Part shown: positions 9,801 to 63,476 of the stretch, one piece after another
How the letters are laid out: each line of letters starts with the position of its first letter
Numbering within the stretch: the first letter of the stretch is position 1
From: Acetivibrio sp. MSJd-27
GTDB lineage: Bacteria; Bacillota; Clostridia; UMGS1840; HGM11507
Assembly: GCF_018918095.1 (NCBI RefSeq)
Contig: NZ_JAHLPV010000007.1
Coordinates: 1-64,000, forward strand
Length of the DNA: 64,000 bases
Direction: 5' to 3'
Notes under the pieces: generated by a model
The model's database searches: none
The model's input: only the letters and a program-made list of their open reading frames with translations
Told to the model about the DNA's origin: nothing
Program-made: the position numbers and the translations under genes

Positions 9801-9833
9801 AACGTAATTTCATACAATTTGGAGTTGAAGCAA

Positions 9834-10694
9834 TTGGAAGAAATCATTCAAGCCATGGATCTTTCCTATCAGTATATGAATGAGGATGAGGAAAGCGTTC
9901 TGGTTCTAGATCATTTAAACATCACGGTGCCCAAGGGACAGTTTTTGTCTGTTCTGGGGCACAACGGCTCGGGGAAATCCACTTTTGCCAAACATCTGAA
10001 CGCCATTCTGCTGCCCTGCGGCGGAAAGGTGTACGTGGCCGGGCTGGATACCTCCTGTGAGGAAAAAACATTGGAGGTGCGCCGCAATGTGGGCATGGTA
10101 TTTCAGAATCCCGACAATCAGATTGTAGCTTCTGTGGTGGAGGAGGACGTGGCTTTCGCCTGCGAGAATCTTGGCGTGCCTCAGGCGGAGATGCGAAAGA
10201 GAGTCGATGAGGCTCTGAAATCGGTCGGAATGTATGAGTACCGGGACAGGGCACCTCATATGCTTTCCGGCGGGCAGAAACAGAGGGTGGCAATCGCCGG
10301 CATCATCGCGATGCGGCCGGAATGTATTGTTCTGGACGAGCCAACCGCCATGCTGGATCCCATGGGGCGGCAGGAAGTCTTGAAGACGATCAAAAAGCTG
10401 AATAAGGATTATGGGCTGACCATTGTGCTTATCACCCATTATATGGAGGAGGCGGCTCTGTCCGACCGGATTATCGTTCTGGAGAAAGGGCAGGTTCTTA
10501 TCGATGACAAACCGCGGGATGTCTTCAAGAACGTAGCGGTTTTAAAACAGACCGGACTGGACGTCCCGCAAACCACAGAATTATTGTTTGAGCTGCGGCG
10601 CGCGGGTATCCATGTGCCTTTTGATAAACTGACCGTTGCGGAATGCGTCGGTGAATTGGAGAAACTGTTAGGGGGAACGGAGAAGTGCTGTTAA
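9834..10694 (+). CDS. ecfA1: ECF transporter A component 1 (ATPase)
   Basis: 286 residues from TTG 9834; GGAG at 9821-9824 is 9 bases upstream, which favours it over TTG 9819 or 9825. Energy-coupling factor ATPase that with EcfA2 and EcfT drives uptake of vitamins or metals bound by separate S components. Motifs: Walker [11 protein letters not shown]-loop FQNPDNQI, signature LSGGQKQR, Walker [14 protein letters not shown], switch His in ITHYMEE. No S component is encoded nearby, as expected for a shared group II module. Overlaps ecfA2 by 10 bases. Confidence 0.93.
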
Positions 10695-27445: not shown

Positions 27446-27533
27446 ATGTGATAAGAGCAGCCCTGCTGAAAAGCAGGTACGCAAAGCTATAGGGTCTAAC
27501 ACTCTTCTTAAGGGTTATGATAGCCAGTTACCG
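27446..27533 (+). ncRNA. Cyclic di-GMP-I riboswitch (GEMM)
   Basis: Aptamer hallmarks in order: GTGATAAGAGCAG, a CCTGCT-GAAA-AGCAGG hairpin with a GNRA-type loop, the conserved ACGCAAAGCTATAGGGTCTAA, a second hairpin (CTCTTCTTAAGGGT), then ATGATAGCCAGTTACCG. This matches the class I c-di-GMP aptamer, including the tetraloop arm and the CAAAGC/GGGTCTAA core. The 3' end merges into the left arm of the next terminator, so ligand binding and termination are exclusive or cooperative; the sense of control cannot be fixed by eye. Confidence 0.88.
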
Positions 27534-27565
27534 CAAGCCAGTCTTTCTGGGTTGCGGTTTTTTTT
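27530..27565 (+). terminator. Riboswitch expression-platform terminator
   Basis: CCGCAAGCCAG pairs with CTGGGTTGCGG (one internal mismatch), followed by eight T. It overlaps the last bases of the aptamer and lies 115 bases before the first gene. Confidence 0.85.
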
Positions 27566-48599: not shown

Positions 48600-50312
48600 A
48601 TGTCAATTCCACGACCGGAATATCCCCGCCCAATCCTGCAAAGAGATCAATGGCTCAATCTAAACGGAGAATGGGAGTTTGAAATCGACAACGGAAAAAA
48701 CGGGATCGAGAAAAAATTTTATGAAAGAACCCATTTGAAAGGACGGATTACCGTTCCGTTTTGTCCGGAAAGCAAGCTTTCCGGTATCGGAAATACTGAT
48801 TTTATGAACTGTGTGTGGTACCGAAGAAGCGTGTCTATTCCAGAAGAATGGAGCGGAAAACACGTTATTTTGCATTTTGGCGCGGTAGATTATTCTGCAA
48901 GAGTTTATGTCAATGGCAGTTTGGCAGGAGAACACAGGGGAGGTTATACTCCCTTTCGGTTTGATATTACCGAATGGCTGAAGGAGGGGGAAAACAGTAT
49001 TGCGGTCTGCGCGGAGGATGATATCCGAAGCCATAACCAGCCTGCGGGAAAGCAGTCTGCTGAATATCATTCCGCCGGATGTTTCTATACAAGAACGACG
49101 GGAATCTGGCAGACCGTCTGGATGGAATGTGTAGATGAATGCCATATCAAGCAGGTGAAAACGGTTCCCGACACGGAAAACGGTGCAGTGACTATCACGG
49201 TGATATTCCCGAAAGCAGAGCCGGAAGTGGTTGTCACGGCGTCTGCCTCCTTTGAAGGAAAGCCGATGGGAACGGCAAGCACAAAGGGTGTTTCCGGCTG
49301 TGTAACATTCTCCCTTTCCCTGAAGGAAAAGCACTTGTGGGATATCGGACAGGGGAATCTGTATGATTTGCAGCTTACGGTTGAGAAAGACGGGAAAATA
49401 CGCGATTCGGTGCAGAGCTATTTTGGACTGCGTTCGGTAGGGCTTGACAGAAAGGCGCTTCTGCTGAACGGAAGAAAAGTGTTCGGCAGATGGGTGTTAG
49501 ACCAGGGCTTTTATCCCGACGGCATTTATACCGCGCCGGATGATGAGAGCCTGAAAAAGGATATATTATACGCTATGGAGCTGGGCTTCAACGGCGCCCG
49601 CCTGCATGAAAAAATCTTTGAACCGCGGTTTCTTTACTGGGCGGATAAGCTGGGATATCTGGTCTGGGGTGAGCATGCAAACTGGGGGCTGGATATCACC
49701 GAAAAAGGGCAGGTATCCTATTTTCTTCCCGAATGGCTGGAAGCGGTGGAGCGGGACAGCAGCCATCCCTGTGTGATAGGCTGGTGCCCCTTCAATGAAA
49801 CCTGGGACTTTAACGGCAGATGTCAGGACGACCGGGTTTTGGAAATGGTGTACCGGGCGACCAAAGCGGTTGATCCCACGCGTCCGGTTATAGATACCAG
49901 CGGAAATTATCATGTGATGACCGATATTTTTGATGTGCACGATTACTGCCAGGATGGGGAAGAATTCCGCACGCATTATGAAACCAAATATTTTAATCCC
50001 TTTGAGGAGAGACAGACATACCGGGGAGAGCCCTATTTTGTCAGCGAATATGGAGGGATTCAATGGAGCGGCGAACAGAAAGGCGGATGGGGCTATGGGG
50101 AAGCGCCCGCGACGGAGGAGGAATTTATTAACCGTTACCGGGCTCTGACCGAAGCGCTTTTGAAAAACGAAAACATCATGGGCTTCTGCTATACCCAGCT
50201 CTATGACGTGGAGCAGGAACAGAACGGCTTGATGACCTATGAACGGAAATTTAAATTTGATCCGGACATCTTCCGGGAGATCAATACGCAAAAAGCAGCG
50301 ATGGAGGAGTAG
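48600..50312 (+). CDS. GH2-family glycoside hydrolase
   Basis: 570 residues from ATG 48600, 8 bases after AAAAGGAAG. GH2 layout: sugar-binding jelly-roll (about 15-180, LNLNGEWEFEID, VWYRRSVSIPEEW, GGYTPFRFDIT), Ig-like middle domain (about 185-290) and TIM barrel. Acid/base Glu400 is in WCPFNETWDF and the nucleophile Glu483 in FVSEYGG. This enzyme class includes beta-galactosidase, beta-glucuronidase and beta-mannosidase; the short form here is nearest in style to a small beta-galactosidase or glucuronidase, but the sugar is not fixed. No signal peptide, so it is cytoplasmic. Confidence 0.87.
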   Translation: MSIPRPEYPRPILQRDQWLNLNGEWEFEIDNGKNGIEKKFYERTHLKGRITVPFCPESKLSGIGNTDFMNCVWYRRSVSIPEEWSGKHVILHFGAVDYSARVYVNGSLAGEHRGGYTPFRFDITEWLKEGENSIAVCAEDDIRSHNQPAGKQSAEYHSAGCFYTRTTGIWQTVWMECVDECHIKQVKTVPDTENGAVTITVIFPKAEPEVVVTASASFEGKPMGTASTKGVSGCVTFSLSLKEKHLWDIGQGNLYDLQLTVEKDGKIRDSVQSYFGLRSVGLDRKALLLNGRKVFGRWVLDQGFYPDGIYTAPDDESLKKDILYAMELGFNGARLHEKIFEPRFLYWADKLGYLVWGEHANWGLDITEKGQVSYFLPEWLEAVERDSSHPCVIGWCPFNETWDFNGRCQDDRVLEMVYRATKAVDPTRPVIDTSGNYHVMTDIFDVHDYCQDGEEFRTHYETKYFNPFEERQTYRGEPYFVSEYGGIQWSGEQKGGWGYGEAPATEEEFINRYRALTEALLKNENIMGFCYTQLYDVEQEQNGLMTYERKFKFDPDIFREINTQKAAMEE

Positions 50313-50555: not shown

Positions 50556-50584
50556 TTGACAAATGGAAAGTTTTTGATTATAAT
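50556..50584 (+). promoter_or_regulatory. Perfect consensus promoter of the peptide gene
   Basis: TTGACA, 17-bp spacer, TATAAT. Expected start near 50591, 60 bases before the peptide. Confidence 0.9.
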
Positions 50585-50651
50585 ATGAGTAACGAACTGG
50601 AACGGGAGAACTTTGGATGACATTATAAAAAGGTAAAGGAGGGCGGTTGTA

Positions 50652-50816
50652 ATGAAAAAATACGTTAAGCCTGAGTTGGAAATGAAAAAATTCGTTTCCA
50701 ATGAGACAATTGCAGCAGGAACCTTAAATGAATTTTTGGCGGAAAATGGGATCGATTCTGATGTTGGAATTACTACATATCAATCCAATTCCCAGGGCGG
50801 TTTTGATGTTGTTTAA
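50652..50816 (+). CDS. 54-residue orphan peptide, possible RiPP-like or signalling precursor
   Basis: 54 residues beginning MKKYVKPELEMKKFVSNETI and ending NSQGGFDVV. AAAGGAGGG lies 8 bases upstream, and the gene has a perfect promoter and its own terminator, so it should be well expressed alone. The start KKYxKPELEMKKF with Thr at residue 19 resembles the YxxPxL...T leader of lasso-type peptides, and a Gly-Gly (49-50) near the end resembles a protease cleavage site. But no modification, protease or export gene is nearby, and the rest (acidic, Asn/Ser-rich, no Cys) does not match a known core. Similar short KKYxxP proteins occur in gut Clostridia without known function, to my recollection. 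No function is claimed. Confidence 0.7.
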   Translation: MKKYVKPELEMKKFVSNETIAAGTLNEFLAENGIDSDVGITTYQSNSQGGFDVV

Positions 50817-50845
50817 TTGATTTGAATTTTTATATTGTTTTTGAA

Positions 50846-50873
50846 AGCTTCGGAAACATCCGGGGCTTTTTTT
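50846..50873 (+). terminator. Terminator of the peptide gene
   Basis: AGCTTCGG pairs with CCGGGGCT (two G-T pairs), AAACAT loop, seven T after. Confidence 0.85.
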
Positions 50874-50903
50874 GTATCATTTTCACAGAAATCAAAATCG
50901 GCA

Positions 50904-50932
50904 TTGACAAGAAAAGAAAAAAAGGATATAAT
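50904..50932 (+). promoter_or_regulatory. Perfect consensus promoter of the his genes
   Basis: TTGACA, 17-bp spacer, TATAAT, about 50 bases before hisZ. Confidence 0.88.
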
Positions 50933-56200: not shown

Positions 56201-56464
56201 ATGTATTCTAAAGAAGTTGTTGTACAAAATCAAGTTGGCCTCCATGCGCGGCCTGCTACATTTTTTATCCAGAAAGCAAACGAGTTTAAATCGACTATCT
56301 GGATCGAGAAGGATGAAAGGCGCGTCAGTGCCAAGAGCCTTCTTGGTGTTTTGTCACTGGGAATCACCCGGGGAATCAATGTGACATTGATTGCAGAGGG
56401 GCCGGACGAGGAACAGGCAGTCAATCAGCTGGTGGATTTAATCAATTCCAATTTTGACGAATAA
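56201..56464 (+). CDS. ptsH: Phosphocarrier protein HPr
   Basis: 87 residues, AAGGAG 9 bases upstream. The catalytic His15 is in QVGLHARPATFF and the regulatory Ser46 in SAKSLLGVLSLGI, so it can be both a PTS carrier and, when phosphorylated by HPr kinase, a CcpA partner. No enzyme I gene is adjacent. Crh can be told by lack of His15, so this is HPr proper. Own terminator follows. Confidence 0.95.
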   Translation: MYSKEVVVQNQVGLHARPATFFIQKANEFKSTIWIEKDERRVSAKSLLGVLSLGITRGINVTLIAEGPDEEQAVNQLVDLINSNFDE

Positions 56465-56473
56465 TGTGTGTAA

Positions 56474-56494
56474 ACGCCCGAAAGGGCGTTTTTT
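56474..56494 (+). terminator. Terminator of ptsH
   Basis: ACGCCC-GAAA-GGGCGT followed by a T-run. Confidence 0.92.
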
Positions 56495-56557
56495 GCTAGG
56501 ATCATTTTGCGGATTATCTTGGATGAATGGCAGGTGGAATCAGGAATGGAGCGGATA

Positions 56558-58396
56558 ATGGAGCAAATTAAGGAGAAATTAAAGCTGCTGCCGGAAAAGC
56601 CCGGCGTATATTTGATGAAAAATCAGAACAATGATATCATCTATGTAGGAAAGGCTAAAATTCTGAAAAACAGGGTACGCCAGTATTTTATGAAGTCGAA
56701 ATCCCACAATAATAAAACGCTTACGATGGTCAGCCATATCCGGGATCTCACTTGGATTGTGACGGATTCCGAGGTGGAGGCTTTGATGCTGGAGTGCAAT
56801 CTCATCAAAAAGTACCGGCCGAAATATAATATTCTGCTGAAAGACGACAAGACGTTTCCCTATATCAAGCTGACGGTAAACGAGGATTATCCAAAGATAC
56901 TGATGACACGCAGGATTGACGACAAAAATGCGAAATTTTACGGACCTTTTGTAAGCTCCTTCGCTGTAAAGAACACGATTGATCTGCTGAAAAAAACGTT
57001 TCAGATCCGCGGCTGCAACCGGAATCTGCCGAAGGATATCGGTAAGGAACGGGAATGTTTGAACTATCATATCAAACAGTGCAGCGGTCCCTGTATGAAT
57101 TACATCACAAAAGAGCAGTACCGTGAGAATTTCAGCGATGTGATTGATTTTCTGGAGGGAAGATCCGACAAGATCATCAAAAAGCTTCAAGCGGAAATGA
57201 TGCAGTATTCCGAACAGCTTTTGTTTGAACAGGCGGCGGATACAAGGGATAAAATCAATTATTTGAAGAGTATCTTAGAAAAGCAGAAGATTTCCGCGCC
57301 CAGGGATGCAAACTACGATATCATTGGGACCAGCTGTGATGAAAAAAGCACCTGCTTTACCATTCTTTTTATCCGCGGCGGCAAGCTGCTGGGCTCCAAG
57401 AACATGTTTATTCCCGATGAGGAAAAGACAGATGACATGCTGGGGGATTTTTTGAAACAGTTTTATGACGAGCCGGACAGGATTCCCAAAGAGATTCTGC
57501 TTCCCTGCGAACCGGAGGATATGGATGTTCTTTCGGCGTATTTCAGCCATTTGAAAGGGCAGAATGTCTATCTTGCCGTTCCGCAGAAGGGGAAGAAAAA
57601 AGAACTGGTGGATCTGGCCTATAAAAATGCGCTGGAGGCGGTAAAACAGCGTTCCAACAACAAAAAGACCTATCTTCTGGAACAGCTGAAACAGCTGCTG
57701 GATTTGCCGGCGATTCCAAGACGGGTGGAGGTTTACGATATATCCAATACCTCGGGCACGGATATTGTCGGGTTTATGACCGTCTTTATTGACGGAATGC
57801 CAAGAAAAAAGGAATACCGTAAATTTAAAATAAAATACGTGGACGGGCAGGATGACTATGAGTGCATGAAAGAAGTGATATACCGAAGGCTGGTGCGCTA
57901 TCTGGAGGAAAAGCAGCTTCTGGAAGAGGAAAAAGTGGAGGCGAAGGATTTGAAATTTATCGATCTGCCGGATCTCATCTTTGTGGACGGAGGGGCGAAC
58001 CATGTACGGATTGCCAAGGAAGCGCTGGCACTCTCCGGTCTGGAAATTCCAATGTTCGGCTTGGTGAAGGACAATAAACACCGTACCCGCGACATTACCT
58101 CGGATGAGAGAGAGTACCATGTCTATGACAATCCGCCTCTGTTTCATCTGGTTGCCGCCATGCAGGAGGAAACCCACAATAACGCCGTGCGGTATCACCA
58201 TCTGGTGCGCACCAAAAATACGACCAAATCGGAACTGCTGCAAATAAAAGGGGTGGGGCCGAAGACAAGGGAAAGCTTACTCAAAGCGTTTGGTTCTCTG
58301 ACGGCAATCAAACAGGCTACTGCCGGAGAACTGGCAAAGTGTGTTTCCCGTCAGGCTGCGGAAAGCATTTACGCCTATTATCATCCTGAGAATTAA
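56558..58396 (+). CDS. uvrC: Excinuclease ABC subunit C
   Basis: 612 residues from ATG 56558, 6 bases after GGAG; ATG 56546 and 56507 are upstream options without a better site. Dual-incision nuclease of nucleotide excision repair. GIY-YIG domain (PGVYLMKNQNNDIIYVGKAK) with its Tyr and Arg (RVRQYF); Cys patch GCNRNLPKDIGKERECLNYH with CSGPC; UVR UvrB-binding domain (about 195-240); RNase H-like nuclease (YDISNTSGTDIVGFM, VDGGANHVRIAKEA); and C-terminal helix-hairpin-helix (LLQIKGVGPKTRESLLKAFG). Confidence 0.95.
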   Translation: MEQIKEKLKLLPEKPGVYLMKNQNNDIIYVGKAKILKNRVRQYFMKSKSHNNKTLTMVSHIRDLTWIVTDSEVEALMLECNLIKKYRPKYNILLKDDKTFPYIKLTVNEDYPKILMTRRIDDKNAKFYGPFVSSFAVKNTIDLLKKTFQIRGCNRNLPKDIGKERECLNYHIKQCSGPCMNYITKEQYRENFSDVIDFLEGRSDKIIKKLQAEMMQYSEQLLFEQAADTRDKINYLKSILEKQKISAPRDANYDIIGTSCDEKSTCFTILFIRGGKLLGSKNMFIPDEEKTDDMLGDFLKQFYDEPDRIPKEILLPCEPEDMDVLSAYFSHLKGQNVYLAVPQKGKKKELVDLAYKNALEAVKQRSNNKKTYLLEQLKQLLDLPAIPRRVEVYDISNTSGTDIVGFMTVFIDGMPRKKEYRKFKIKYVDGQDDYECMKEVIYRRLVRYLEEKQLLEEEKVEAKDLKFIDLPDLIFVDGGANHVRIAKEALALSGLEIPMFGLVKDNKHRTRDITSDEREYHVYDNPPLFHLVAAMQEETHNNAVRYHHLVRTKNTTKSELLQIKGVGPKTRESLLKAFGSLTAIKQATAGELAKCVSRQAAESIYAYYHPEN

Positions 58397-63425: not shown

Positions 63426-63476
63426 TTGACAATTTCATTATACATTTGTATAATGAAATTAGCTTATACAAATGTA
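63426..63476. promoter_or_regulatory. BlaI promoter with two perfect operators
   Basis: TTGACA (63426), 17-bp spacer, TATAAT (63449). Over and after it lie TCATTATACA-TT-TGTATAATGA (63435-63456, perfect 10-bp arms) and TTATACAAATGTATAA (63464-63479). Both hold TACA-2-TGTA, the BlaI/MecI dyad. Self-repression is very likely. Confidence 0.85.

Follow-up and report, generated by a model that had tools for sequence, protein, structure and literature searches.

Modified-peptide (RiPP) precursors usually consist of a conserved leader joined to a variable core. The closest known system to the one analysed here is that of the linear polyphosphorylated peptides (LPPs), described in Paenibacillus in May 2026 (Popov et al. 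2026, PMC13381572), in which an RRE binds the leader YxxP (residues N33, D70 and F74 of LppB holding the leader Pro and Tyr), a kinase adds several phosphates to core Ser3, and a signal-peptidase-like protein (LppS) cuts the leader, aided by the RRE (PMC13381572). The roles of the Paenibacillus kinase and peptidase were shown by gene deletion (PMC13381572). We consider that a 54-residue ORF found in the window (i.e. the whole 64-kb stretch of Acetivibrio sp. MSJd-27 DNA that was analysed) is, with a probability of roughly 0.8, the free-standing precursor of an LPP-type RiPP system, which a maturation operon located on another contig (C20) would bind, phosphorylate, cleave and export, and whose product would act outside the cell.

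The precursor ORF (50652..50816, + strand; MKKYVKPELEMKKFVSNETIAAGTLNEFLAENGIDSDVGITTYQSNSQGGFDVV), identified by ORF calling, translation and homology, is preceded by a sigma-70-type promoter (50556..50584, +; a 12/12 pattern match to TTGACA-17-TATAAT with the 17-nt spacer) and by a strong ribosome-binding site read directly from the sequence (AAAGGAGGG, 50635..50643, +), and is followed by an intrinsic terminator recovered by terminator search (50843..50877, +), made up of a hairpin (50843-50870, z = -2.15) and a T tail. Exact TTGACA-17-TATAAT matches occur 3 times in the 64-kb window (mean of 0.00 in 100 shuffles); the two additional perfect promoters are found at 50904-50932 and 63426-63454 (+), with 0 expected by chance in 64 kb. 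Upstream, the nearest neighbour is a GH2 glycosidase ending at 50312, and downstream lies an ORF that reads, by sequence, as HisZ; since the latter has its own perfect promoter (50904-50932) and the glycosidase lies on the other side, the peptide gene forms a separate transcription unit, with a constitutive-looking promoter. A role as his-operon leader peptide was ruled out on sequence grounds (no His residues, own terminator, next gene with its own promoter). No maturation or partner gene was found among the local neighbours inspected, and the first-pass annotation, which had described a perfect promoter, 54 codons, an own terminator and no local partner, agrees with the window sequence on all of these points. 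The window also encodes a protein bearing both a signal peptide and an S-layer-homology domain (PF00395; 42784-45429, +), 5 kb upstream of the peptide, and a c-di-GMP-I riboswitch aptamer (27446-27535, +, 67 bits).

Neither the window peptide nor 30 of its relatives has a significant family in Pfam or NCBIfam, and when the peptide by itself was first used as query against named genomes, no match was obtained. A search of its own genome (a draft of 104 contigs) recovered a paralogue on contig C24 (E 7e-7; 2 copies in all), and a genome of the same family (G003) was found to contain about 17 copies. The peptide family is widespread, without a name in either database, and its precursors (up to 17 per genome) are encoded in trans. 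Across 57 distinct peptides, aligned on Tyr as anchor, the high-information columns are Tyr0, Pro+3, hydrophobic residues at +5/+7, F/I/L at +10, acidic residues at +13/+14, Ile+16 and Ala/Thr+17, and column information drops to about 0.7 bits or less beyond +21. Considered together with the RRE contact residues and the LPP leader data (PMC13381572), this profile suggests that residues 1-21 (50652..50714, +) make up the leader, with Y4xxP7xL9 as the putative RRE-binding motif accompanied by E18, I20 and A21. By comparison with homologues, residues 22-54 (50715..50813, +) would form the variable core, with [IV]TT[YF]xxxS near its end (Ser47), an ending common to the cores of related peptides from its own family. 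Serine is present in every core, at a frequency close to chance expectation. In slightly differing G003 copies we observed 3-7 synonymous versus 1-2 non-synonymous codon changes, and this excess of synonymous changes in near-identical copies indicates that the frame is translated and kept. The lasso-type YxxPxL...T spacing previously noted holds for Tyr4, Pro7 and Leu9, which belong to the conserved motif; Thr19 is not conserved in homologues, and the same is true of the Gly-Gly near the C-terminal end to which attention had been drawn. Taken together, the window peptide is very probably a RiPP precursor that is matured in trans.

Only one PqqD-type RRE exceeds the cut-off in the genome of origin (PF05402, 69 bits), and it is encoded on contig C20, in an operon with an HprK-like kinase, an archaeal-type signal peptidase and an MsbA-like exporter, adjoining an S-layer-homology protein. 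The two precursors are found on contigs C7 (that of the window) and C24, and as the window peptide lies at least 50 kb from both ends of its contig, the C20 operon would act on it in trans. Since no peptide gene of this genome is found inside the C20 operon itself, what links the two is homology and the lack of any other RRE. The kinase carries P-loop SGTGKST and NDD motifs, and its confident AlphaFold model (pLDDT 94.5) matches PEPCK and HprK folds. The RRE model, likewise confident, matches leader-bound TbiB1 (TM 0.8); its residues N35, D72 and F76, which do not vary across 13 RREs, correspond in the alignment to LppB N33, D70 and F74 (PDB 9x8z); in that alignment the Asn is missing from TbiB1, and both Asn and Asp from the paeninodin RRE. 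The peptidase matches TIGR02228 (sigpep_I_arch) with 26 bits, below the cut-off of that model, and has Ser35, His73 and Asp88 within GNSM, LHR and GDN motifs, while the top NCBIfam match of the exporter is MsbA_rel, also below cut-off. No NTP transferase (PF14907) is encoded in the 19-kb operon locus. The only NTP_transf_5 (LppN-like) gene of this genome is found on contig C11 (near 56360-57061, L298), within an apparent polysaccharide locus. S-layer-homology proteins flank the C20 operon, and one also lies upstream of the peptide in the window.

Within the 291 genomes of the class that were searched, the HprK-like kinase is found in 86 and the peptide profile matches 35, of which 2 cover inner positions only, without the Tyr, and were counted as false. 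All 33 remaining peptide genomes encode the kinase, as compared to 53/258 others (Fisher 2e-20, uncorrected for phylogeny), and in 14 genomes the peptide gene adjoins the kinase gene, typically in the order RRE, peptidase, exporter, secreted protein, peptide, kinase and S-layer-homology protein. Eight further kinase loci were viewed, of which all except that of G005 have an RRE and three a peptidase; G017 and G066 have the NTP transferase (PF14907) in their clusters. One G066 locus (L124, G066:C3:145000-160000) contains three precursors, the kinase, peptidase, exporter, RRE and NTP transferase, and an ORF reading as radical SAM; two of its cores have several Cys, and it perhaps typifies a further-modified branch of the peptide family. 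In Paenibacillus contaminans (L144) a 33-residue peptide (MKKEYEKPQIEIEEYELPCICSESGGLGDGEDF, 9813-9914), located directly upstream of kinase, RRE, peptidase and NTP transferase, is a Bacilli member with a leader nearer to the gut family. The first-pass annotation had pictured a small modified peptide with maturation genes in trans, and this picture has gained substance: the operon that encodes the sole over-threshold RRE, together with kinase, peptidase and exporter, lies on a different contig, and operons of this kind contain homologous peptide genes in other genomes. The search for related short proteins and their neighbours that it advised gave the C24 paralogue, about 17 copies in G003, and 33 peptide genomes, 14 of them kinase-adjacent.

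Outside the window, 52 of the 56 peptides have a same-strand gene at most 150 nt upstream, and a signal peptide is predicted in 40/52 of the upstream proteins versus 58/313 other ORFs (Fisher 2e-16; signal peptides were called by a simple rule, and some upstream ORFs were clipped at the fetched ends). Furthermore, 22 of the upstream proteins (272 to 1999 residues) have in common a C-terminal domain that is absent from Pfam. A profile of this domain was made from peptide neighbours without own-genome sequences, so that only own-genome and non-adjacent matches are independent; it identified 24 places in the own genome. We inspected 22 of these 24: a signal peptide is present in 21, and 18 end no more than 15 residues before the stop. 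One of the 24 domains belongs to a secreted protein whose gene follows that of the C24 peptide at a distance of 41 nt. In G003 a peptide gene directly follows 10 of 26 such domains, while the window peptide itself has no secreted-protein neighbour with the shared domain. These observations suggest that the mature peptides work together with these surface proteins. A further step, which we regard as possible though rather doubtful, would be that a single operon serves many precursors, and that the matured, probably phosphorylated peptides dock on, complete or attach to the shared C-terminal domain, the pathway thereby serving surface-protein assembly and not antibiotic production. A fusion of the peptide core to a secreted protein was sought with a core profile, which gave no credible C-terminal match among 3061 ORFs. 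One minus-strand ORF of 905 residues (L275, G000:C9:29600-37000) encodes a secreted protein in which the shared domain is succeeded by a tail (ESVNAFLQSNGSEPIPYTSYELPEQTQEE) that resembles the window core (local score 32, reached by 41/10000 shuffles, the tail having been picked post hoc from 22); it may represent a natural fusion of peptide core and partner, and is a lead only.

On the proposed mechanism, the peptide would be made from its own constitutive-looking promoter, and the YxxPxL of its leader would be bound by the PqqD-type RRE of the sole maturation operon (C20), after which the HprK/PEPCK-fold kinase would phosphorylate a core serine and the archaeal-type signal peptidase would remove the leader near Glu18-Thr19-Ile20-Ala21; we infer these binding, phosphorylation and cleavage steps by analogy with the characterised Paenibacillus LPPs. 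Export of the core by the MsbA-like ABC protein is hypothesised, as is a subsequent extracellular action, probably with the secreted proteins encoded beside its relatives.

The resemblance to lasso precursors that the first-pass annotation had pointed out is real as far as the leader is concerned, for both the profile and the model of the RRE match lasso B1 proteins. A lasso precursor (with B2 as leader protease and a C enzyme of asparagine-synthetase type, encoded at another locus, closing the core into a ring) would fit the YxxPxL leader and an RRE whose closest PDB structure is the lasso B1 TbiB1, and Gly23 and Glu31 would permit a nine-residue ring. However, there is no conserved Thr at -2 before Gly1, the Gly is not invariant, B2 (PF13471) is missing from the own genome and from all 33 peptide genomes, and the peptide is not found in any of the five genomes of the class in which B2 passes the cut-off. 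The cyclase C (PF00733) is represented in the own genome by partial matches only (33-118 of 354 positions), away from the operon. As B2 is absent and no full-length asparagine-synthetase-type cyclase was found, we consider the peptide not to be a lasso precursor, a reading to which we assign a very small probability; where the first-pass annotation had advised looking for B1/B2/C or other maturation genes elsewhere in the genome, an RRE with kinase, peptidase and exporter was found on C20, and B2 and a full-length C were not.

It is likewise improbable that the ORF has nothing to do with the operon and encodes a peptide that stays unmodified and acts in signalling or regulation, whether secreted or inside the cell: its stand-alone unit with strong promoter and terminator, and the location of the maturation genes outside its neighbourhood, would suit such a role, but it has no signal peptide, and the leader/core pattern, the kinase co-occurrence and the operon adjacency of its homologues would be unexpected. 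The absence of an adjacent secreted-protein gene (unlike in most homologues), together with a longer C-terminus and the lack of the W of the G003-type core, could also mark a relic or poor substrate, i.e. a gene that lost its neighbour and is transcribed without a function of its own. This we deem unlikely, given that the ORF is intact and has a consensus promoter, ribosome site and terminator, that every leader position is kept, and that the peptide scores best of all in the family profile (which includes it). An LPP-type precursor matured by the C20 operon remains our preferred reading.

What is new here is the presence of many trans-encoded precursors, mostly just downstream of secreted-protein genes, many of which share one C-terminal domain; a search of open-licence papers gave no previous description of such sets. 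The LPP-type core machinery of gut Clostridia, with dozens of precursors, most of them paired with secreted proteins, leads to a concrete function hypothesis, and the secreted-protein neighbours offer a first clue to the role of such peptides. If the surface-partner reading is true, a RiPP pathway would serve surface-protein assembly instead of antibiotic making. Moreover, most precursors of systems of this kind are missed when RiPPs are mined by cluster, and the short genes described here constitute a testable family named by neither Pfam nor NCBIfam.

In comparison with other known systems, the paeninodin-type lasso peptides share with the present one the RRE, the HprK-like kinase, the exporter, sometimes the NTP transferase, and a [Y/W]xxPxL leader; here B2 and cyclase are absent, the RRE is without the paeninodin W-pocket pattern, and the peptides are predicted to be linear. 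The make-up of the SynChlorMet cassette includes PqqE-like radical SAM/SPASM genes, which the C20 operon lacks, and its ScmC (TIGR04249, 44 bits) and ScmD (TIGR04248, 25 bits) are distantly related to the C20 kinase and RRE, respectively, both far below cut-off. The PQQ precursor/PqqD system shares the PqqD-fold peptide chaperone and a lasso-like leader motif, whereas the operon described here is without PqqE and its precursors are numerous, with long and variable cores. The LPP systems of Paenibacillus are the nearest, having in common with the present one a discrete RRE, HprK-like kinase, archaeal-type signal peptidase and MsbA-like exporter in one operon, the YxxP leader, the N/D/F contact residues of the RRE, and the lack of lasso cyclase and B2. 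They differ in that LPP clusters include an NTP transferase (PF14907), which the C20 operon does not, and in the leader (YxxPxVLxHQxIxFETxxS), of which only YxxP is found here, with a hydrophobic residue at +5 and Glu at +14, without VLxHQxIxFETxxS and with a different junction. LPP precursors number 1-3 per cluster and reside in it, whereas those described here are dispersed, encoded in trans at up to 17 per genome and mainly within secreted-protein operons; they lie outside the operon in the genome of origin but inside it in 14 relatives. A further difference is that, in the set searched, the present system never occurs alongside lasso genes. Finally, LPPs occur in Bacilli and are surrounded by capsule loci, while the present system belongs to gut Clostridia and has S-layer-homology and secreted-protein surroundings.
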